Origin: a virus
Direction: 5' to 3' (one strand)
Virus record (IMG/VR): IMGVR_UViG_3300003702_000012
Coordinates: 1 to 28,191 of that record
Length of the DNA stretch: 28,191 bases
Every line of letters begins with the position of its first letter. Position 1 is the first letter of the stretch. The notes under the pieces are model-generated. The model was not told the DNA's origin and ran no database searches. It saw only the letters and a list, made by a program, of their open reading frames with translations. Shown here piece after piece: positions 1 through 20,379 of the stretch. The translations under genes and the position numbers were made by a program.

Positions 1-784
1 CATCATTCACAAATGTTTGAGTATCTGGCGCCGTTGATAGTGATCGGGTAGCAGTACTAGATCCTCCAACAACATTTGCACTCGTTGAAAATGTTCCTTT
101 TATATCTGAAATTTTCAATACATTATCTGTAGAATTCCAAGTCAACACTATTGCTGTAGTACTTGCAGTTGCCGCTGTATTTCCTTGATATACAGTTTCC
201 CCGACCGTATAATTACCAGAACCACTTCCTAATGTTAATTCTAATGCATATGATAAAGTATCTTCAATAGTATCTATATCTGAAATTCCTGTATCAAGTG
301 TTTCATCAGAATACTCAAAGAGTTCACATGTTAAATCATATACAGGAAGATTTCCTATTTGATAAAAAACTGAAAATGCATCTACAAAACGAATTTCAAA
401 TATTTGTTTAGAAAGGGGGAAAAAGACTAAATCACCCTCCGCTGGTCTAGCATAAGTCAAATTATTAAGATCAGAAAACAAAGAAAATTTTCTTTGGGAT
501 ACTGTAAAAGTAAGTTGGTCTCGGATTTCTAATCCAAATCTACCTAAAAACCTACCTTCACCTTCAAACCCATCAGAGTTTTTAATGTACATTTCGATAA
601 CATATGCTTGAGAAAAATCTGAAAGATAGTCTTCACCATATAGGCTGTCTTCCTTAACTAGAGTTCTAGGAAGATAATATACATCATGACCATAAATTTT
701 AATAGTTTCTTCGACTAAATTTTCGATGAGTGTTTGCTCATTTGAATTTTCAAGCCCGTGATTAAAATATTGACTTACTGCCAT
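1..784 (-). CDS. 14: Neck protein gp14 (T4-like), C-terminus cut by window edge
   Basis: The product is the second head-tail neck protein. In T4, gp13 and gp14 form the neck that closes the filled head and receives the tail. The 261 residues read from the ATG at 784 begin MAVSQYFNHG. They carry the family's hallmark stretch around residues 30-60 (YGHDVYYLPRTLVKEDSLYG) and then EMYIKN, FEGEGRFLGRFGLEIRD and, near 155-175, FEYSDETLDTGISDIDTIED. These match gp14 of marine T4-like phages as I recall them. From about residue 191 a threonine-rich double beta-module follows (GETVYQG ... ITG-like half, see repeat entry). The start lies two bases after the gp13 stop and is served by an AGGAT sequence inside the end of gene 13, so the two are probably translationally coupled. 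The reading frame is open to position 1, and the stop lies outside the window. Confidence 0.9.
   Translation of the reverse strand, partial: MAVSQYFNHGLENSNEQTLIENLVEETIKIYGHDVYYLPRTLVKEDSLYGEDYLSDFSQAYVIEMYIKNSDGFEGEGRFLGRFGLEIRDQLTFTVSQRKFSLFSDLNNLTYARPAEGDLVFFPLSKQIFEIRFVDAFSVFYQIGNLPVYDLTCELFEYSDETLDTGISDIDTIEDTLSYALELTLGSGSGNYTVGETVYQGNTAATASTTAIVLTWNSTDNVLKISDIKGTFSTSANVVGGSSTATRSLSTAPDTQTFVND
35..214 (-). repeat. Double beta-module of gp14 (GETVYQG type), shared with gp8 and the gp7-like protein
   Basis: Residues 191-250 of gp14 read as two linked half-motifs. The first contains GETVYQGNTAATAS, followed by a strand ending KISDIKGTF. The second half contains VVGGSSTATRSLS. The same order of half-motifs occurs in gp8 (residues 427-485) and, as a first half only, in the gp7-like protein (about 1067-1100). 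The DNA encoding the first half at 183-202 differs at one base of 20 from 13952-13971 in the gp7-like gene. The function is unknown; I infer a surface-exposed beta domain. Confidence 0.7.
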
Positions 785-786
785 TA

Positions 787-1803
787 TTATCCTGGTCCGA
801 TCATAAAATCTATTGGTAATTCGTAAGTTAACCGCATTTCTTCGTGTAATGCATTAATCTCTTCTTTTGCTTCATCTAATATTCGTGCCCCATTTAATGT
901 GACACCTCCTGGTAATTGTACTCCCTCAAACTTTATTAAATTCATTCCCCATTGGCGTTTAAATAGAGCCGTAGTATAGTGTTTGAGAAACATATCATTA
1001 AATATATCACCATATGTAGTTCCATTAAGAGAACGATATGCCTCCGCTATAACCCAATCATCTGGTTCTACATCAGTTGATATTCCATACCAATCCCAAT
1101 CTATGTATAATCGATCCATGTGTCTATTAAATCTTATTGATTTTTTTCCAACAAACAAATCTTTTAACAATTGAATATGTGACATAGTTGAAGCAAAATT
1201 GGCAATACCAGCCCCACTTTGTAAATATGGCATTTCATTCAAATGAAATTGATATTGAAAACTAAACATATTTGATGTGGTCGATCCGGAATCATTAACA
1301 TCAAATATGCCGGTTACACTTATAACATTTTCAGCAATAGAAATATAATGATTATCCATATCACCGAAAGTAACTGCTGGTGTACCATGTACTGTTACTG
1401 TCGATCCACTTCCACTCCCAGTAACCGTTTCTCCTGCTGTAAATGTTGAGCTTGAATTATTATTTTGTACTCCATTTTGGTCGTTATGACTATGAAATGT
1501 CACTATTGTAGTATTTTGAGAGTAAAATGTGGCGGTTGCATTACTTGTACCACCTGTGATAGTTTCTTCTTTTGTAAAGGTGCCGCTATTAGCAGAAATT
1601 GCAAAGGTGGAACCTGTAATTTTATGTTTTAGATAAATTTTTTCGGTGCCTTCATGGTGATATTCATTCCAATATTCTAACGCTTCATCTATTCTATCAT
1701 CAAGTTGGTCTTCATCTACGTTAATTTCTACTACTGGATGTCCAAGGGCCCTTTTACAGTAATCTCTCAGTTCTACTCTACTGGCAGGTTTTGTGGCGCT
1801 CAT
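787..1803 (-). CDS. 13: Neck protein gp13 (T4-like)
   Basis: This is the head-tail connector/neck protein that acts with gp14 after DNA packaging. The 338 residues show the family core. An N-terminal region (residues 18-50) contains ALGHPVVEINVDEDQ, DDRIDEALEYW and the YHHEG that follows. A central part contains YISIAENVISVTGIFDV (153-169), RFNRHMDRLYIDWDW (224-238) and MFLKHYTTALFKRQWG (271-286). The C-terminal part reads LIKFEGVQLPGGVTLNGARI (289-308). Between the N-terminal region and YISIAENV lies an insert of about 85 residues (63-148) made of two GETITG/GETVTG modules, which I do not recall in most relatives. The ATG at 1803 has AGGAG eight bases upstream (1812-1816). A late-type AATAAATA lies further upstream. 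The gene is followed two bases later by gene 14. Confidence 0.93.
   Translation of the reverse strand: MSATKPASRVELRDYCKRALGHPVVEINVDEDQLDDRIDEALEYWNEYHHEGTEKIYLKHKITGSTFAISANSGTFTKEETITGGTSNATATFYSQNTTIVTFHSHNDQNGVQNNNSSSTFTAGETVTGSGSGSTVTVHGTPAVTFGDMDNHYISIAENVISVTGIFDVNDSGSTTSNMFSFQYQFHLNEMPYLQSGAGIANFASTMSHIQLLKDLFVGKKSIRFNRHMDRLYIDWDWYGISTDVEPDDWVIAEAYRSLNGTTYGDIFNDMFLKHYTTALFKRQWGMNLIKFEGVQLPGGVTLNGARILDEAKEEINALHEEMRLTYELPIDFMIGPG
1360..1617 (-). repeat. Two GETITG/GETVTG modules inserted in gp13
   Basis: Residues 63-148 of gp13 hold two copies of a beta-module with the pattern F-x-x-(G/E)-E-T-(I/V)-T-G-x-(T/G)-S-x-(A/S)-T. The first copy reads FTKEETITGGTSNATATF (76-93) and the second FTAGETVTGSGSGSTVTV (121-138). 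Conserved gp13 sequence flanks both sides, so the modules look like an insertion in a surface loop. The second copy includes 19 bases (1418-1436) identical to 21902-21920 in the 1009-aa protein gene. Confidence 0.7.
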
Positions 1804-1854
1804 TTAAAATGCTCCTATTGGTAGGGGTCTGGTCTATGTTCTTATTATATTTAG

Positions 1855-1862
1855 TATTTATT
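1855..1862 (-). promoter_or_regulatory. Probable late promoter of genes 13-14 (AATAAATA)
   Basis: The minus strand reads AATAAATA, one base off the T4 late consensus TATAAATA. It fits the NATAAATA form described for cyanophage late genes. With T4 spacing, transcription would start near 1849, giving a leader of about 46 bases before the gp13 ATG. It faces away from the plus-strand promoter at 1903-1910. Confidence 0.55.
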
Positions 1863-1902
1863 AAACTGCTAGGAAGTATATAAGATGATAAGAGAAGATT
1901 AT

Positions 1903-1910
1903 TATAAATA
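1903..1910 (+). promoter_or_regulatory. T4-type late promoter of the plus-strand gene (TATAAATA)
   Basis: This is a perfect match to the T4 late promoter TATAAATA, recognised in T4 by RNA polymerase carrying the gp55 sigma factor with gp33 and the sliding clamp. It sits in the short divergent region between gp13 and the plus-strand gene. T4 spacing puts the transcription start near 1916, about 33 bases before the GTG start. The octamer lies within a small palindrome, TATTATAAATAATA. Confidence 0.75.
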
Positions 1911-1937
1911 ATAGGAAGGATTTGAAAACACTAAATT

Positions 1938-1943
1938 GGAGGG
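1938..1943 (+). promoter_or_regulatory. Ribosome binding site that fixes the GTG start at 1949
   Basis: GGAGGG is followed by five bases (CTCCG) and GTG. The in-frame TTG at 1922 is only about six bases downstream of the predicted transcription start and has a purine run abutting it rather than a spaced site. The GTG is therefore the better start. Confidence 0.75.
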
Positions 1944-1948
1944 CTCCG

Positions 1949-2308
1949 GTGGCTTTATCTATTAAAAAACAGACAATTAACTATATTTTAGATCAAGGAT
2001 GTAATTTTGAAAAAACTGTTACTGCAAAAAATGCTAATAATGCAAATGTAACAATAAGTTCTGGTAGTTGTGCTGCTAAAATGAGAACTTCACACTATAC
2101 ATCAAATTCAAATAATATTTTTACATTTACAACAAGTGTTACTGGATCTAATGTAACCATAACCGCAAATGCGACTCAAACGGCAAATACCACTATTGTT
2201 CGACCAGGGCGTTACATATTTGGAGTAGAATATACTCAATCTGATGATGTAACAAAGGAGAGAATTTGTGAAGGTGTAATTACCGTTTCTCCTGAATCGA
2301 CCAAATAA
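1949..2308 (+). CDS. Small Ig-like-type virion protein on the opposite strand
   Basis: I predict a 119-residue protein from the GTG at 1949, starting MALSIKKQTINYILDQGCNF. A longer TTG-started version from 1922 is possible but unlikely (see ribosome binding site). It is rich in Thr, Asn and beta-formers. A central segment SCAAKMRTSHYTS is followed by strands and then the C-terminal pattern RPGRYIFGVEY ... ICEGVITVSPE. This layout resembles small structural proteins of tailed phages that begin with a 'fixed-energy loading' strand and end with a G-x-Y-x-(F/Y)-x-(L/V)-x and EG-x-(I/V)-x-V-x-P pair. That suggests a single Ig-like beta-sandwich, but I cannot name a family with certainty. It is the only plus-strand gene here. 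It has its own late promoter and ends three bases from the stop of the convergent fibre gene, with no terminator visible. The late promoter and location point to a virion component such as a fibre adaptor or decoration protein; this is inference. Confidence 0.75.
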   Translation: MALSIKKQTINYILDQGCNFEKTVTAKNANNANVTISSGSCAAKMRTSHYTSNSNNIFTFTTSVTGSNVTITANATQTANTTIVRPGRYIFGVEYTQSDDVTKERICEGVITVSPESTK

Positions 2309-2311
2309 TAA

Positions 2312-4240
2312 TTAATTTATTTTCTTCTTTAATTCAAGTATTTCTTTTTGTTGTTCTTTTATAGCTTCAATAAGAAGAGCAGAAATTTTAGAATATGAAA
2401 TTGCTATTGGCTCACCATTTTGATTTGTACTTACTAGTTCGGGACATACATCATATGTATCTTCAGCGATAAGACCTAAAACATCTGTTTGATTCTCTGC
2501 ACCTTTTCTTATTTTTTCAATAAAATCAAATTTTACCCCCTTTAATGCCAATACAGATTGTAAAGGATTATCTATATTTCGTATATTTTCTTTAATACCT
2601 CTATATGAAGATTCTGTAATTGTTCCCGTTACTGTAAGTGTATCTGATGGAGTAGCCGTACCAATACCAACATTACCTCCAGAAGTAATTAATGCATAAT
2701 TAGTATCTGCACTTCCTACTGTAATATCCATTCCGATTGTTTTACTTGTTCCGTCTGTCGTTCCCACAACATCTATATCCATACCTGTTGAGGTAAGAGT
2801 ACCAGCTCCGTTACCATTTACTTCTAGATCAATTCCAATATTAGAAATAGTTGCAGTTCCTGATGAAGCATCTTGATCAAAATCTATATATAATCCCTTA
2901 ACTGTATTAGCGCTAACATCAGAAAAATTCTTATCTAATGTTATTCCTGTAGTACCACCATCTGATTGTACATATAATGCTTGGGCAGCCACGGCATCTG
3001 CATGATTTTGAATAATCTGAACACCCTTCCTTGCAGTAGTCGAATTAGAAGTATCATCCAAATAAAGCATTGATCCTGATGTTAAAGCAGATGCTGTAAC
3101 ATTAACGACCTTTTCAGTTGTTTGAGCGGCGGCTATATCCAGAGCTATTTTATCAGCATCATTTGAATCAATATAAATCCCAGCTGTAGCATCTGAAGAT
3201 CCTACATTAACGTGTAATTTACCAGAAAAAGCACCGGTTGCCCCTGCTCCCGGAACCATAACAGAACCTCCAGAAGCGTCATCAATATGTAATCCAACTG
3301 CCGCTCCGGCGCCAAGAGTCATACAATCATTTGCGTGATTATAACTAATATAGCCAATATCTGCGTCAGCAGAATCACCAAATGCCAAAGTACATTTAGA
3401 AGTAGTATTTGCGAGAAGAGTAGCTCCAGCAGTATTACCCTCTAACATCAATAAACTATCTGTTATAAGTGCTCCGTTAGCTGTTGCTGTTGTACCTCCT
3501 GCCGCGTGGTCATTTCTAATATGAAGATGGGATTTTGAAGAAGTTGCTGTTCTTGTTGAGCCTGTAACTTCAGGAAAATTCCCTATAGCAACATTAGCGT
3601 TTGTAACATCTTTACCAAACACAGCTCCACTATTTGTCGTAAGAGTTGAAGTTGTATTCATTGTTACATTACAATTATCAATAGTACCACTATTAATATC
3701 TAAAGAAGTCATAGAGGCACCACCAGAAACGGTTCCTGAACTAATGTCCAATGTACCACCATCTAGGGTAAGTGTATCGGATCCTCCGATTGTAATAGTA
3801 GTATCATTAACTGTTCCATTATCAATATTTACAGTAGTAATATTACCTAAATCACTTACTGTGGCACCAGCAAAATTAACTGTTCCACTAACTGTTAATG
3901 TTTTTCCAGAACCAACTGTAATATCAGAAGTGGCTATGGTAGCGCCATCAATAGTACCACCATCAAGATTTATTGTAGTTACCGTACCTAAATCGGCAAC
4001 TGTTGCACCAGAAAATGTTACATTACCAGTTGTAACTAATTTAGTGGCAGAAATATTAGCCGAGATAGAATTTGCTGTTATTGCATTGGTTGAAAAACTT
4101 CTATTTGTATCTCGTAGTATCAATTTATCCGCAGTATTATTTTCTGTCGAACCATTTAATGTGGCAAGTGCCTCATTTGTTCTAGTTCTCCAAATCTCAA
4201 AAGTATTTGTTAATTCAACATTTGCGAGTGAAATAGCCAT
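2312..4240 (-). CDS. Tail-fibre protein with C-terminal S74 intramolecular chaperone
   Basis: The protein is 642 residues long. It begins with a helical leader (LTNTFEIWRTRTNEALATLN, 10-29) like the attachment ends of marine phage fibres. A Gly/Thr-rich beta shaft follows, with a 47-residue repeat at 74-149 and many further short strands. At 522-541 is the fibre motif GNVGIGTATPSDTLTVTGTI. The last 98 residues are an S74 chaperone domain with SYRGIKENI, LGLIAEDTYDVCPELV and a final coiled helix. Ser545 and Lys550 have the Ser-x4-Lys spacing of the catalytic dyad known from endosialidase tailspikes. Self-cleavage before Ser545 would release the chaperone once the trimer has folded. The gene takes the place where T4 has gene 12 and wac. 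It starts one base after the stop of the 82-aa gene, with AAAAGGGAT as a moderate ribosome site. The receptor-binding role is inferred from family and position. Confidence 0.85.
   Translation of the reverse strand: MAISLANVELTNTFEIWRTRTNEALATLNGSTENNTADKLILRDTNRSFSTNAITANSISANISATKLVTTGNVTFSGATVADLGTVTTINLDGGTIDGATIATSDITVGSGKTLTVSGTVNFAGATVSDLGNITTVNIDNGTVNDTTITIGGSDTLTLDGGTLDISSGTVSGGASMTSLDINSGTIDNCNVTMNTTSTLTTNSGAVFGKDVTNANVAIGNFPEVTGSTRTATSSKSHLHIRNDHAAGGTTATANGALITDSLLMLEGNTAGATLLANTTSKCTLAFGDSADADIGYISYNHANDCMTLGAGAAVGLHIDDASGGSVMVPGAGATGAFSGKLHVNVGSSDATAGIYIDSNDADKIALDIAAAQTTEKVVNVTASALTSGSMLYLDDTSNSTTARKGVQIIQNHADAVAAQALYVQSDGGTTGITLDKNFSDVSANTVKGLYIDFDQDASSGTATISNIGIDLEVNGNGAGTLTSTGMDIDVVGTTDGTSKTIGMDITVGSADTNYALITSGGNVGIGTATPSDTLTVTGTITESSYRGIKENIRNIDNPLQSVLALKGVKFDFIEKIRKGAENQTDVLGLIAEDTYDVCPELVSTNQNGEPIAISYSKISALLIEAIKEQQKEILELKKKIN
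3794..4021 (-). repeat. 47-residue tandem repeat in the fibre shaft
   Basis: Residues 74-102 (start VTFSGATVADLGTVTTINLD) and 121-149 (start VNFAGATVSDLGNITTVNID) are two copies of the same unit, offset by 47 residues (141 bases). The copies are diverged at the DNA level. A third, weaker echo may follow around 176-190 (MTSLDINSGTIDNC). This is most simply a repeated beta-helical or beta-prism turn of a trimeric fibre shaft. Confidence 0.7.
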
Positions 4241-4241
4241 T

Positions 4242-4490
4242 TTAGTGATCCCTTTTCTCGGTTAACCCCAACAATAAATTTTTTATTTCTGTACAGTCTT
4301 CTTTTAACGTACTTAAATTTTTTATTTGCTCTTTCATGATATTTATATCCTCAGAAAAAGCCTTTAATTCGTTTGTTGTTTTAATCTGTTTAAGATTTTT
4401 TTCTAACGCTTCACGGTCTGTAGCCAATAAGGCATTTGAATAATTGTCCCGAACATAACGTGAATCATTTGTTTTTATTAATTGTGACAT
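4242..4490 (-). CDS. 82-residue coiled-coil protein preceding the fibre gene
   Basis: The product has 82 residues, starting MSQLIKTNDSRYVRDNYSNA. The remainder is almost entirely charged and leucine-rich, with heptad-like spacing from about residue 28 to the end (EALEKNLKQIK, INIMKEQIKNL, EIKNLLLGL). It has no signal peptide, membrane segment or cysteine pair of note. The gene begins seven bases after the stop of the 2202-aa gene and ends one base before the fibre start, so it is part of the same operon and co-translated with the fibre. Its position between a baseplate-periphery protein and a fibre suggests a connector or trimeric foldon-like assembly factor. That is inference; I do not recognise a named family. 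Confidence 0.75.
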   Translation of the reverse strand: MSQLIKTNDSRYVRDNYSNALLATDREALEKNLKQIKTTNELKAFSEDINIMKEQIKNLSTLKEDCTEIKNLLLGLTEKRDH

Positions 4491-4497
4491 ATCTTAA

Positions 4498-7400
4498 TTA
4501 CGATGTTGTTGCTACAGCGATAGCTCTTAAATCTCTTACGCGAGGAACATTAATAGAATTCTTTTGTGAACTACGATTCATTGTTAAAACAATTTTAACA
4601 GCAAATGTAGAAAAGTCTTCAAAACTTGTCCCCGCCGTATTTAAATATTCGATCTTACCATCAGATGAAACAAATTTAAATTGTTTATAATCTTCTTTAT
4701 CAGCAGAATAAACATCTGCCGCAGTATCTTGAGTCATTTTAACCCAACTTCTATCTTCAAAATTTTCTGAGTCTTCTTTATTAGAAACTTTATAATATAC
4801 ATGAACATCAGTATTGTATGGTTTATAGGCAGAAATATAAGCAACTAAATCTTTTGCATCAAATCCTTCTTGAAGTGCAACTCTTCTTGAAATATATCGC
4901 GCTTTATTATTTCCTCCTGAGGCGCCTGTTTCACCAACAATTTCTACTGTTGCTCCAGAACCGGCAGAACCACCTCCTTCTCCAACTACTGTGACAGTTG
5001 GAGTTTTTGTATAACCAGATCCGGCACCAACAACAGCCATTTGGTTAAATGCATTAACACTACCAGTTAAATGAACATTAGCTCCTATAGTTGCCGTGGT
5101 ACCACCAGATATATCAGGAGAAGAAACAGTAAATACGGAAGTATTTCCACTTATAGCATCTCCTGTTGCAAATTGTGTAGTATTTCCCCCTACTCGACTA
5201 TCATGATATCCAGTACCTGGGTTAGTAATTCTTATATCTGAATTTGCTAATGAACCATTATTGATAAGATATTCAACATTAACAACTCCCATTTTATGTA
5301 CATCAAGTATGGGAGATACATAAGTGTTAGAAGTAGTCATTATTGTATTGACTGTAAACGAATTTTTATAATGTGTATTAGTAGTATTTGTAATATATTG
5401 TATTGCTTGTTGCTGTTCTAAGAATATATTTTTATTAGTAATAGTATCTTTATAATCAGCAGTAGCTTCTGCATATGCTGTGCCATTTGCTGCAGAATCA
5501 TAACTATATGTAAATGATGTATTTGCAAAATTTAATTCTGCAGTCATGATTTTCATCACATCAATTTTAGTATTAGATGTGGCACCCATTGCACTATTTA
5601 CAGAATTTTTAAATCTGGCATAACTTACATTAGCAGTTGTTCCATAAGTAAAATCAGCGCGGTCGAGCCTGAACATTAAACCTTCGGCTGGTTCGGGTTC
5701 CCATTCTGTTGCATTATGTTGTTTAAAAAACGAACCAACAACCTTTGGTTTTGTAATTTTTCTATCAGTTCCTGTATGTTTAGCCCCTATATCATATGCA
5801 TACAATTTATATGCTGGATCGTTTGACTGTACTACAAATGCATATTCCCCTGGTAATAGATATACAGGAGATGAAAATTCAAATACTGTTTTAGAACCTT
5901 TATCTATTCTCGACATATTTCCTGTCATTGAATTTCCACGCAAATCGGGAGCAAATTCTCCGACAGTCTCACCCGCGACAGTATTATTTGCTGTTACTGC
6001 CGTAGTTACTGGGACTGGTGTTGAAATATTTGCCGTTATTCCTCCCGTCCATTTTGTTACTTCTGAAAATGGAATAATAACAGACGAACTTGGTTTACCA
6101 TTATATACGGGCCTTAATGATACAGTTACAGGTGTTTTTGAACCAGAAGTTGTTGACGCCTTAGAATAAAAATATAAATGTAATCGTGTAGCAAATACAC
6201 CAAAGGGATAGTTATCTTTATCAACAAAAAATGTTTGCGCCATAGGGTATACAAAATTTGTTGATGTAGATTGTCTAGCCTCTGTGGCAGACTTTGCAAT
6301 TGTTAATTCTGTTGGGTCTTGTCTCCTCGTTATGGGAGGTCTAGTAGAAACTATTCCATCAATTCTTGTTTGTGTAGCACCGCTTGCATGAAAATGTGAC
6401 TCGGCGACTGATGTTGTAGTAGATAGGATATTATCTACATCATCAGTTAATCTTAATAATCTCGGACCCGTAAGAAATTTATTAGAAGGTATACTAATAA
6501 CTCCAGCAACAACTCCTTCAGCACTTACTTGAAGTTCGGTATTTGCATATTGGTATGAGGTAGGAGTAGAAGATATTGTTCCATTAGCGCCCGATTTATC
6601 TCCTTGAACAATAGAAGATAAAGAAAATGCTAAAGCAGTACTTTCTTCAATATACATTATAGTACAACCGTTAGCTGCAGTTCTATCATTCATGAATAAA
6701 ACGTTTGCTGTATTACTAGCATTAGTTCCCGTACCTTGTATAGTAATTTGTTCATGATGACCACTAGTTGTTCTAAATACATTGTCTTGATTAACTTCAG
6801 AAAGAGTAGCCGATGTTGCTTGTTTAACATTAGCCGTTATATTTACACCATCGAAAAATGCATAAACATTTTTATTAGGTTTTAGTCCTTTAGCAATAAA
6901 GCGAAGTGTTTGTGTGCGAATATATGGGACTACACTAACATCAACTAATTTATTTCCAACCAATTTAATAATTTTTTCAGGCAATTCTCCGGATCTTAAT
7001 GCAATTCCTGTTTTTTTCAACGAAACTTCAGTTGTTTCTCGCTTACTTTTAACTTTTTTACCTAAATCTCTAGACCCCTTTTTAATTTCTTCCGAAGATT
7101 CTGGTAGTCTTCCTGACCAAATCCGTTCCCATGAATTCCACATTGTACCATGACCATTAGAAGTAATAATGTTAAGAAAGCCATCATTTTGACCTTCTAA
7201 ATTTACTACTACAGAAGCCCGATTAGAAGAATCATACCAAATATCGCCAGGTGGGTCGAGTTCTAAAGAACCAATATAACTTTGTTTTGCGAATGGATTC
7301 ACAGAAAGGTATTTTTGAAAATTTTTGCTTTCTGTATTACCCGTTAATGGTATATCAATAAATGAAGTATGATCATACGGCAATGTAACCAAACCACCAC

Positions 7401-11133: not shown

Positions 11134-12705
11134 TTAAAACTCTAGTACAAGTTTTATATCTTCTAATTGGTCTTCTGACCGTGTAATTGCTGCTCTATTC
11201 TCTATATAAAGAATTTCACCAGAATATCGTTTCATATCTGGTGTAGCAATTGTACTAACTGTTGCTGTCCCGCCGGAAGTATTTCCTGTAATTGTATTAA
11301 CTGTACTATTTGCAACAAAAGTTCCTAAAACATCTGTTATCCTGATTTTATTTCCATCTCTAAAATCAACAAAAGTGCCATTTGCTGTAGAGGACCCTAA
11401 CGTTCCTCCCTGATAGATAACTTCATCATTTGCCGTTGATGGGGGATATCCAAAAGTTCCTGTTACCCCTGTTAATGTTAATGTAAAAGTTTGATCTGCT
11501 TGTGCTCCCGTGAAAAACGCTTCTACGTTAGAATATTGTTTAGGATCACGTAATAAACCCACTTTTCTATAATCACAACTTGTAGCAAATTTACTATCTT
11601 CATTTCCACTTAATCTGGCATTTACTATAACATAATGACCGCCCAATTCCACAGGAGCATTAGAACCATGTCCTCCCGGAGGTCCTATAATAACAGTTCC
11701 CGTTGCACCAGAACCATGACTAGCATTTCCATAAACTGTAACATTTGCTGTTGTATAACTACTTCCTACTTTAGTTATTTCAATTTTAGTTACTTGTGTA
11801 CCAGAATTTCCAATACATCTCGCCTTTGCCGCTGAACCATCTCCATTAACATTTGCCGTTGGAGCAAGTTGATATCCACTAGATGTATTCGCTAATACTG
11901 AAAAGGCATTTACTAAGGTTGCTCGTCTTTGTGCTCCGTCATATGCACTAATTACCGATTGCTCTCCTCGGGAAGCATTGTTTGTTATATAAACTGTTGA
12001 ATTTACATAAATGCCATCAGTAGTATTTGCAGAAGCTGCGAGAGTTATAACTGATGTATTTTGTACACTCGCCAAAGTTCCTTCATCAAATAAAAATGAA
12101 GTACCATTTGCAGTTTTATTAATAATATCAACAGCCCCATCTATTGCTATATCTTCAACATTAAATTGATTAGAACCATCATCCACAGAACCCACTTTTT
12201 GTACGGGAACATAATCTGTAGTCACAAATTTCAGCTTATCTTCAGGTGAAATGGTATACAAATATTTCCATTTATAACCATCATCAGTTTCAATAATTTT
12301 TGTACTGGTGCCCGTTGGTTGAGATGTTGAATTACCACTATTTATATTATTTTGTACACATTTATATACATGATCACTTGTTGTAACAACATAAAAAGTA
12401 TTTGAATATAAATCAGCATTAGTATCAGTATATGCAGTATAAGCTGTATTTGTTGTCCAATTATATCTTTTGACAATTTGTGATACATCACTGCCATCTA
12501 ACTTTTTGGCAGAAATCATATCTCGCCAATGTGCATATGCTGTATTGGCTACAGAATCAGAAGGAGTTGGTGGTGTAGATTCATCTGGCCATACAACAGG
12601 GCCTCCAATAAACATATATAAATTGGTAGCAGTTGTTTCACTTAAAGCTTCTACAAACTGTTCTGCATTATGTATTCTAAAATTTGCTGAAATAACTTTT
12701 GCCAT
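11134..12705 (-). CDS. 8: Baseplate wedge protein gp8 (T4-like)
   Basis: gp8 is a baseplate wedge component that joins the gp7/gp10 assembly in T4. The 523 residues keep the T4 framework. The N-terminal part contains LYMFIGGPVVWPDESTPPTP (29-48) and a TFYVVTTSDHVYKCVQNNIN block (103-122) followed by ETDDGYKWKYLYTISPEDKL (139-158). The C-terminal end MKRYSGEILYIENRAAITRS (491-510), followed by EDQLEDIKLVLEF, aligns well with the end of T4 gp8 (LMRHSGEMIYMENRPPI...). It is much longer than T4 gp8 (334 aa). The extra length is in the middle: a GSSYTTANVTVYG motif with GSGATGTV (314-337) and a double VIYQGG/ITGNTSG module (427-485). The ATG at 12705 has AGAAGGA upstream. A late promoter and a large hairpin lie directly ahead of the gene. 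Confidence 0.92.
   Translation of the reverse strand: MAKVISANFRIHNAEQFVEALSETTATNLYMFIGGPVVWPDESTPPTPSDSVANTAYAHWRDMISAKKLDGSDVSQIVKRYNWTTNTAYTAYTDTNADLYSNTFYVVTTSDHVYKCVQNNINSGNSTSQPTGTSTKIIETDDGYKWKYLYTISPEDKLKFVTTDYVPVQKVGSVDDGSNQFNVEDIAIDGAVDIINKTANGTSFLFDEGTLASVQNTSVITLAASANTTDGIYVNSTVYITNNASRGEQSVISAYDGAQRRATLVNAFSVLANTSSGYQLAPTANVNGDGSAAKARCIGNSGTQVTKIEITKVGSSYTTANVTVYGNASHGSGATGTVIIGPPGGHGSNAPVELGGHYVIVNARLSGNEDSKFATSCDYRKVGLLRDPKQYSNVEAFFTGAQADQTFTLTLTGVTGTFGYPPSTANDEVIYQGGTLGSSTANGTFVDFRDGNKIRITDVLGTFVANSTVNTITGNTSGGTATVSTIATPDMKRYSGEILYIENRAAITRSEDQLEDIKLVLEF
11251..11427 (-). repeat. Double beta-module of gp8, matching that of gp14
   Basis: Residues 427-485 read DEVIYQGGTLGSSTANGTFV, then KIRITDVLGTF, then TITGNTSGGTATVS. 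The order and spacing match residues 195-250 of gp14 (GETVYQG, KISDIKGTF, VVGGSSTATRSLS). Conserved gp8 sequence resumes at residue 491, so the module sits immediately inside the conserved C-terminal strand. Confidence 0.7.
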
Positions 12706-12717
12706 TAATTCCTTCTG

Positions 12718-12758
12718 CCGTATAAAGATTATACAGATATTTATAATCTTTTATACGG
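12718..12758 (-). repeat. 41-base imperfect palindrome (hairpin) at the gp7/gp8 junction
   Basis: The plus-strand arm 12718-12733 (CCGTATAAAGATTATA) is complementary to 12742-12758. The second arm has one extra T, giving a 16-base-pair stem with a single-base bulge and an eight-base loop. The structure includes the stop codon of the gp7-like gene (12751-12753) and the late promoter of gp8, and ends two bases before the gp8 AGAAGGA ribosome site. It lacks a following U-run, so it does not look like an ordinary intrinsic terminator. Confidence 0.8.
12738..12745 (-). promoter_or_regulatory. T4-type late promoter of gp8 (TATAAATA)
   Basis: The minus strand reads TATAAATA, a perfect late consensus, in the 45-base gap between the gp7-like gene and gp8. 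T4 spacing predicts a start near 12732 and a leader of about 27 bases. The upstream context AAGAT-TATAAATA resembles the one before gp25 (AAAGT-TATAAATA). The octamer overlaps one arm and the loop of the palindrome at 12718-12758. Confidence 0.75.
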
Positions 12759-19037: not shown

Positions 19038-19562
19038 TTAAGCTTCGTCTAAAATAAAAGCAGTTGTGCCTGCTTCTGTTATGTTTGTAGGATGTTCAGG
19101 AGTATATGTAGTTTCGGTTGTTTGTGATAACCATGTAGTAAATTCTAAAGGCTCTATTTGGCTGGTTATTCTAAAAACTATGTCTATTTTGTAACCGTTT
19201 CGATCCGGATCTGCCTTGGCCCCAACATGAATCAAATCACAGCGTGGTTCCCAATTATTAATGGCTTCAGTACACATCCTAATAAGCCTTTGTTCAGTTA
19301 TGGGACTATAGGGCTCAAAAAGAAGCCATTTAATACCAGAACCATATCCAGGTTGAAACAATTTTTCACCAAAATCAGTAAACAATATATTTCGAATAGA
19401 CCTTTTGATAGCAATGTCACCTCTAGCAAGTACAATATCTCCCGATGTAGGGTGCTTGCCAAATGTAATATCTAAATCCCGATGAATTTTAAAACCGGCA
19501 TTTTCTAATACCTCAATCCGTTTATCATGTTCTGCGTTATGACCTACGTTTAATGTTCCCAT
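19038..19562 (-). CDS. 25: Baseplate wedge protein gp25
   Basis: gp25 is a small wedge protein of the inner baseplate, related to lysozyme-like GpW/Gp25 sheath-initiator proteins of contractile tails. The 174 residues include the family core. LDITFGKHPTSGDIVLARGD (25-44) is followed by AIKRSIRNILFTDFGEKLFQ, PGYGSGIKWLLFEPYSPIT and NNWEPRCDL. The core motif R-N-I-(L/I)-x-T-x-x-G-E-(K/R)-x-(F/M)-x-P-x-x-G is intact apart from minor changes. About 25 C-terminal residues (TETTYTPEHPTNITEAG...) extend beyond the core and may be disordered. The ATG at 19562 has AGGAA upstream. A perfect late promoter lies 32 bases upstream, making this the first gene of the 25-6-7 unit. In T4 itself gene 25 lies in another cluster. 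Confidence 0.94.
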   Translation of the reverse strand: MGTLNVGHNAEHDKRIEVLENAGFKIHRDLDITFGKHPTSGDIVLARGDIAIKRSIRNILFTDFGEKLFQPGYGSGIKWLLFEPYSPITEQRLIRMCTEAINNWEPRCDLIHVGAKADPDRNGYKIDIVFRITSQIEPLEFTTWLSQTTETTYTPEHPTNITEAGTTAFILDEA

Positions 19563-19593: not shown

Positions 19594-19601
19594 TATTTAT
19601 A
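19594..19601 (-). promoter_or_regulatory. T4-type late promoter of gp25 (TATAAATA)
   Basis: The minus strand reads TATAAATA within the 43-base gap between the third small paralogue and gp25. T4 spacing predicts a start near 19588 and a leader of about 26 bases with AGGAA before the ATG. The bases just upstream (AAAGT) resemble the context of the gp8 promoter. Confidence 0.75.
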
Positions 19602-19605
19602 ACTT

Positions 19606-19872
19606 TTAACTCATCGTACCTGAAGCCGTTCCCGTTTCAGGCACCGCCACTAAGGGTCCTGGAACTGGAGGGCTTCCCGGTGCCGCCATAGATGCTGGTC
19701 CATTGACTGTTGTTGTTCCAGCAGTTGCTACCATTCCACTTTTTAAATATGTGTCTATTGCCGTTGATATATCCTTACACAATTCTTCCTGTGCATCCAG
19801 AGTTTTTGAGCTCATAGCTTTTAAAAAAGCGGCTTTCAATTGTGATTGTAATGAAGATGTTACTAACGGCAT
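19606..19872 (-). CDS. Small tandem paralogue C (88 aa)
   Basis: This is the last of three neighbouring paralogues. The N-terminal half is helical: MPLVTSSLQSQLKAAFLKAM, then a conserved LCKDISTAIDTYLKSGMV. The C-terminal half is Gly/Pro/Ala-rich (PASMAAPGSPPVPGPLVAVP) and ends GTASGTMS. It is the most proline-rich of the three and lacks the glycine stretch of its siblings. It has a good AGGAG site upstream of the ATG at 19872. The gene begins eight bases after paralogue B and ends just ahead of the gp25 promoter, so it is the final gene of the upstream unit. The function is unknown. The place among hub and wedge genes and the late position suggest a minor baseplate or spike-associated protein. 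Confidence 0.75.
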   Translation of the reverse strand: MPLVTSSLQSQLKAAFLKAMSSKTLDAQEELCKDISTAIDTYLKSGMVATAGTTTVNGPASMAAPGSPPVPGPLVAVPETGTASGTMS

Positions 19873-19880
19873 ATTTTCTC

Positions 19881-20126
19881 CTATGACATTGAACCTGTTC
19901 CTGTTCCTACTCCCACGGCACCTGATATTGGGCCCCCAGGAAGTCCTATTCCACCATTAGCAACTCCTGTTTCTGTAGTACTAACTAATCCAGATTTTAT
20001 ATAAGTATCTATTGCAGTAGCCAAATCACTACAAAGTTCATCAAGTGAAGCAGAGGCTCCTCTACTTTGTTGTTTTTGATACGCTGCATACATTTGAGCA
20101 GATAAAGATGATGATACTAAAGGCAT
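19881..20126 (-). CDS. Small tandem paralogue B (81 aa)
   Basis: This is the middle member of the set. It shares MPLV-x-x-SL at the N-terminus, LCSDLATAIDTYIKSGLVST in the middle and the ending GTGTGSMS. A single cysteine lies in the same place in all three (C32 in A and B, C32/33 in C, by eye). The C-terminal half is glycine-rich (GIGLPGGPISGAVGVGTGTG), which suggests an extended or spike-like tail rather than a globular fold. It starts one base after the stop of paralogue A, so it is likely translated by coupling. I know no named family for it. A PAAR-like spike tip was considered but the histidine and metal-site pattern is missing. Confidence 0.75.
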   Translation of the reverse strand: MPLVSSSLSAQMYAAYQKQQSRGASASLDELCSDLATAIDTYIKSGLVSTTETGVANGGIGLPGGPISGAVGVGTGTGSMS

Positions 20127-20127
20127 G

Positions 20128-20379
20128 TTATGTCATGCTCCCTGTTCCTTGTGACAATCCTGCCCCTCCCGCAAAAGGGGTTCCTGGAGCCGGTCCACAC
20201 GCCCCGCCACCGACTCCAGATGTATATGATGTAGACACAAGACCAGATTGAATAAAAGTTGTTATCGCTTGAGCAACATCATCACATTGAGTTTTTAAGG
20301 CGTCTTGAGTTTGTGTTATTTGAGCCTTTTTAAATGCTGCATTTAATTGCCCTTGTAAAGAACCTGCTACTAATGGCAC
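20128..20379 (-). CDS. Small tandem paralogue A (83 aa), GTG start
   Basis: This is the first member of the set. It shares MPLV-x-x-SLQ-x-QL at the N-terminus, QCDDVAQAITTFIQSGLVST in the middle and GTGSMT at the C-terminus. A second cysteine occurs in the glycine-rich half (GVGGGACGPAPG), which siblings lack. The start is GTG, chosen because it aligns with the MPLV of the other two and follows a very strong ribosome site (20383-20390). An ATG overlaps the GTG by one base in another frame but stops after three codons. The gene follows the 1009-aa Ig-array gene by 12 bases. Its function is unknown, and its neighbours point to the baseplate. Confidence 0.75.
   Translation of the reverse strand: MPLVAGSLQGQLNAAFKKAQITQTQDALKTQCDDVAQAITTFIQSGLVSTSYTSGVGGGACGPAPGTPFAGGAGLSQGTGSMT

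Follow-up and report, generated by a model that had tools for sequence, protein, structure and literature searches.

A small inverted LtfC-like gene of T4-like phages that has its own late promoter and, in most relatives, a predicted leaderless mRNA

What is a single inverted gene doing in the middle of a phage structural operon, and how is it expressed? The question is raised by a 28,191-base fragment, the record analysed here and called the window throughout. Its genes gp14 (head closure Hc2; 2-784, minus strand, cut by the window end, assigned by profile matches), gp13 (head-tail adaptor Ad2; 787-1803, minus strand, phrog_211), a fibre gene with a C-terminal S74 chaperone (2312-4240, minus strand, profile matches), the neighbour of the fibre gene encoding an 82-aa small virion protein (4242-4490, minus strand, phrog_473), and baseplate wedge genes show that the virus is T4-like. 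Between gp13 and the fibre gene, an ORF of 119 aa with a GTG start, here named inv, occupies positions 1949-2308 of the plus strand. All other plus-strand ORFs of at least 60 aa in the window lie mainly inside longer minus-strand genes, and inv is indeed, as the earlier note on this DNA had it, the sole plus-strand gene. Both gp13 and gp14 contain inserted stretches with weak matches to phrog_693 (tail fibre protein).

Upstream of inv, a T4-type late promoter box, TATAAATA, is situated at 1903-1910 on the plus strand and is divergent from the gp13 box AATAAATA at 1862-1855 on the minus strand. Exact matches to TATAAATA are about as frequent in shuffled sequences as in the window (5.3 versus 6), and for this reason the promoter call, which agrees with the earlier note, is based on where the box lies and on its conservation among relatives. 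T4 late boxes span positions -13 to -6 (PMC1524935), and from this geometry transcription of inv is predicted to start near 1916; the box ends 38 nt before the GTG. The predicted mRNA has a 33-nt leader (1916-1948) with the Shine-Dalgarno sequence GGAGGG at 1938-1943 (plus strand), 5 nt before the start codon. At the other end, the stop codon of inv (2306-2308) is separated from that of the convergent fibre gene (2314-2312) by the three nucleotides 2309-2311. Terminator scans of 1700-4600 found no terminator-like sites, and fold scans found nothing unusual at the inv/fibre junction, so this part of the earlier description stands as well.

A near-identity DNA search with the window gave no match, nor did a tblastn search of phage records with the window inv protein, although a query with the protein of a relative did find homologues there. 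Related loci, all on contigs that are themselves fragments, numbered 58 with the inv protein as query and 76 with an inv profile. The resulting clade set consists of about 75 loci with 49 distinct inv genes, all of which run against the structural operon (gp13, gp14). In every clade member found through gp13 whose contig spans both junctions, inv is present and inverted, and patchy presence among close relatives was not found in these loci. The suggestion that inv is a recent insertion has therefore to be given up, for the gene is inverted in all clade relatives at 50-65% protein identity, though its site differs.

The window site, between the fibre gene and gp13, is common to only three close relatives, L001-L003, which are 96-99% identical; in the two that extend past gp14 (L001 and L002), the gap between gp14 and gp15 is short and contains no gene. 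The remaining clade members carry inv between gp14 and gp15, usually with a TTAA stop in common with gp14. Comparison with sister genomes, which the earlier note had called for, thus confirms a shared place and orientation among close relatives and gives no sign of clean termination. In a gp13-gp14-gp15 tree, the window lineage is sister to the majority, with cyanophages and the SAR11 and OM43 phages on a separate branch. No inv-like gene is seen in the available stretches of the more distant T4-like loci L136-L153. In phage S-SCSM1, a homologue is situated directly before gp13, which is also the junction used in the window, and this match hints that the window junction may be the older of the two sites. 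Another gene of the window lineage, located between gp15 and the gene for the terminase small subunit (L001:1657-2931), encodes an N-terminus that by eye resembles tRNA nucleotidyltransferase.

One explanation for the orientation would be that inv and its convergent neighbour are transcribed into one another and adjust each other's expression, the arrangement being kept for this purpose. Terminators are missing from the junction in scans of the window and of two relatives. The inv stop falls within a TTAA in 41 of 50 distinct genes, and this is shared with the gp14 stop in the common arrangement, leaving no room for a terminator; moreover, antisense RNA has been documented in cyanophage S-PM2 (PMC2984593). 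However, the partner is gp14 or the fibre gene depending on the lineage, so there is no single conserved pair, and the overlap may merely reflect compact genomes. As the convergent partner is gp14 in most relatives, a tuning specific to the fibre cannot be the conserved purpose, and we regard antisense control as unlikely.

It seems quite unlikely, too, that inv together with its promoter is a mobile, moron-like cassette inserted in reverse at operon junctions. Two insertion sites would fit such a history, as would the HNH endonuclease gene of the same relatives (L005:1141-1563 and equivalents), which is reversed, adjoins terL and has a box 4 or 5 nt before its ATG, and in T4 itself, segD stands in reverse orientation between genes 23 and 24. 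Yet inv occurs in every gp13-found clade member with both junctions on the contig, is under strong constraint, and has homologues elsewhere that are ordinary operon members. We consider it fairly probable instead that inv encodes an LtfC/p132-family virion protein anchoring the tail fibre and forms a self-contained inverted late unit, leaderless in most relatives. Such a unit would consist of a T4-type late promoter and one gene without a terminator, transcribed against the structural operon. With a promoter of its own, inv could invert and move between operon junctions while late expression is kept.

The dN/dS values of inv range from 0.02 to 0.22, silent changes far outnumbering amino-acid changes, and inv is a real protein under purifying selection. 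By sequence-profile similarity it belongs to the LtfC/p132 family: phrog_1084 and phrog_3304 (L-shaped tail fibre assembly) match 32 of 32 members, with best E-values of 2.5e-20 and 5.4e-14, respectively. The top PDB ranks of an inv-family profile that took in 10 homologues from named phage records are LtfC of DT57C (8hqz_Q, E 4e-4) and p132 of T5 (7qg9_R, E 6.5e-4). The Pfam LtfC match remains under the cut-off (19.5-22 versus 27). An AlphaFold2 model shows a seven-strand beta-sandwich (pLDDT 78.8). In a fold search with this model, many Ig-like domains match equally well and LtfC of DT57C is not among the matches listed, an absence that does not speak against it; the phage chains 8jou_B and 8fxr_P3, at Z 7.6, are not decisive. 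Naming the family from the fold search was dropped, as generic Ig-like sandwiches are too common.

LtfC forms a dodecameric ring to which the lateral tail fibres attach (PMC10713586), and by homology inv would most likely help to anchor the tail fibre to the particle. Family membership and the presence of homologues in fibre clusters of cultured phages bear out the link to fibres that the earlier note had drawn. In the cultured phages examined, the inv homologue is co-oriented and lies close to genes for fibres or wedge proteins, and the homologue of L119 directly follows a fibre gene whose product has an N-terminus resembling that of the window fibre. In most relatives, inv adjoins gp14 and gp15 and not a fibre gene.

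The position of the late box differs, unexpectedly, between the lineages. In 46 of the 49 distinct clade inv genes, the box NATAAATA ends exactly 5 nt before the ATG; in the three window-lineage genes it lies 38-39 nt before the start, and the outlying homologue L119 has a Shine-Dalgarno sequence and no box. Given the T4 geometry of -13 to -6, a box ending 5 nt before the ATG places the +1 at the A of the AUG, and transcription in most relatives would begin at this nucleotide and yield a leaderless mRNA. A box at -13 to -6 from the AUG without a Shine-Dalgarno sequence is found in these relatives and not at the window gene. L103 and L106 keep the 5-nt spacing even though the DNA upstream has been replaced and now includes about 1.7 kb of new genes. 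In L103, three tandem Gly/Tyr/Cys-rich genes are also inserted, in the orientation of inv, between it and gp15 (L103:2293-3982). Their products look like adhesin-type proteins, and the first gives no match in PHROG or Pfam. In the group L041-L055 (for example L049:5970-6001), the starts of gp15 and inv are about 25 bp apart and have the palindromic TATTTATAAATA in common, with the gp15 box 8 nt before the gp15 ATG; a single 12-bp element may thus serve as promoter for two near-leaderless genes that diverge from it.

The same layout would serve other genes, both in clade phages and in the cultured SAR11 and OM43 phages HTVC008M, Mosig, and Melnitz. When distances from box to start were counted for ORFs of at least 60 aa, with 20 permuted heptamers as control, the 5-nt spacing occurred 32 times in 12 clade contigs (0.2 expected), nine times in HTVC008M (0.1 expected), six times in Mosig (0.3 expected), and three times in Melnitz (0.1 expected). 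It was absent from the cyanophages DSL-LC03 and S-SCSM1 and from the late region of T4, in which spacings of 20-29 nt are the most frequent. Counting without the filter in additional genomes gave the same picture; P-HM2 came out slightly higher than its control (4 versus 1), so that cyanophages may not be wholly free of the arrangement. The 32 clade sites belong to only four gene families, i.e., inv, the HNH endonuclease, gp25, and a gene for a wedge protein of about 600 aa. Shine-Dalgarno sequences are found at none of 34 clade sites with spacings of 4-6 nt versus 12 of 13 ordinary T4 sites. Seven of the HTVC008M sites coincide with deposited start codons, including those of gp25, the tape measure gene, the DNA end protector gene, and a fibre-region gene, and Shine-Dalgarno-like words occur at two of the nine. 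Boxes at ordinary spacings also occur in HTVC008M, Mosig, and Melnitz. Standing at late genes, the TATAAATA box has the character of a T4-type late promoter. A/U-rich sequence near the AUG can aid translation initiation, but that the box 5 nt before the ATG is a signal of this kind, such as an A/U-rich ribosome-binding stretch, and not a promoter is quite improbable, as no peak is seen with heptamers of equal composition but permuted order, and as other late genes, in these phages or in relatives of theirs, have the same box about 20-40 nt upstream.

On the promoter reading, the window lineage would depart from its relatives in producing a leadered inv mRNA with a Shine-Dalgarno sequence, and two further genes of the window behave alike. 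The box at 12738-12745 (minus strand) lies 32 nt before the baseplate wedge gene at 11134-12705, whose orthologue in relatives has its box 5 nt before the ATG, and the box at 19594-19601 (minus strand) lies 31 nt before the gp25-type gene at 19038-19562, whose orthologues have the 5-nt spacing in relatives and in HTVC008M. Together with inv at 38 nt, ordinary leaders of 26-33 nt are predicted for these three genes in the window lineage. A Fisher test of this lineage against the majority gives P 0.0015 but treats overlapping contigs as independent, and we therefore rely on the three orthologue comparisons only. Adjoining gp25, at 19606-20379, are three tandem small paralogues of 81-88 aa that start with MPLV..S.L.

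Textbook accounts of T4-like late-gene control are based on leadered mRNAs. SAR11 and OM43 are abundant marine bacteria, and the fixed 5-nt distance from box to AUG in their phages suggests that late translation is started in another way. We lean, if only slightly, towards the view that T4-like phages infecting streamlined marine heterotrophs have some of their late promoters placed so as to start transcription at the start codon itself, with leaderless late mRNAs as a regular outcome, and that lineages of the window type switched the same genes to leaders with Shine-Dalgarno sequences, or the reverse, perhaps tracking host translation. In the part of the literature covered, we found no published description of leaderless mRNAs with T4 late promoters, in Pelagibacter or in marine phages. 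According to earlier authors (PMC7029224), late promoters were not satisfactorily found in pelagimyophages, and a leaderless late mode, if true, could help to explain why those searches failed. The 5-nt spacing would also give annotators a precise signal for start codon and promoter, and inv itself is a conserved, unannotated candidate for fibre attachment in an uncultivated phage clade.

LtfC/p132 of T5 and DT57C (PF23926, phrog_3304) resembles inv in its length of 113-140 aa, its profile-level similarity, and the linkage of homologues to fibre genes in cultured phages, and may resemble it in its beta-sandwich. However, T5 is a siphovirus, whereas the window is from a T4-like phage in which inv is inverted relative to the structural genes. 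The phrog_1084/phrog_3304 homologues of Kyanoviridae (HTVC008M, Mosig, Melnitz, S-SCSM1, and P-HM2) are 22-31% identical to the window protein and co-oriented with the operon; in contrast, clade inv genes are reversed and have their own late promoter. The box is the same as the T4 late promoter TATAAATA (gp55), but in the T4 late region it is mostly placed 20-29 nt before the ATG and accompanied by a Shine-Dalgarno sequence, whereas in the clade relatives it is placed at exactly 5 nt and without one. Leaderless phage mRNAs as such are known, for example that of lambda cI, whose transcript begins at the AUG; here, in contrast, the prediction of leaderless mRNAs concerns several late genes for structural proteins in T4-like phages.
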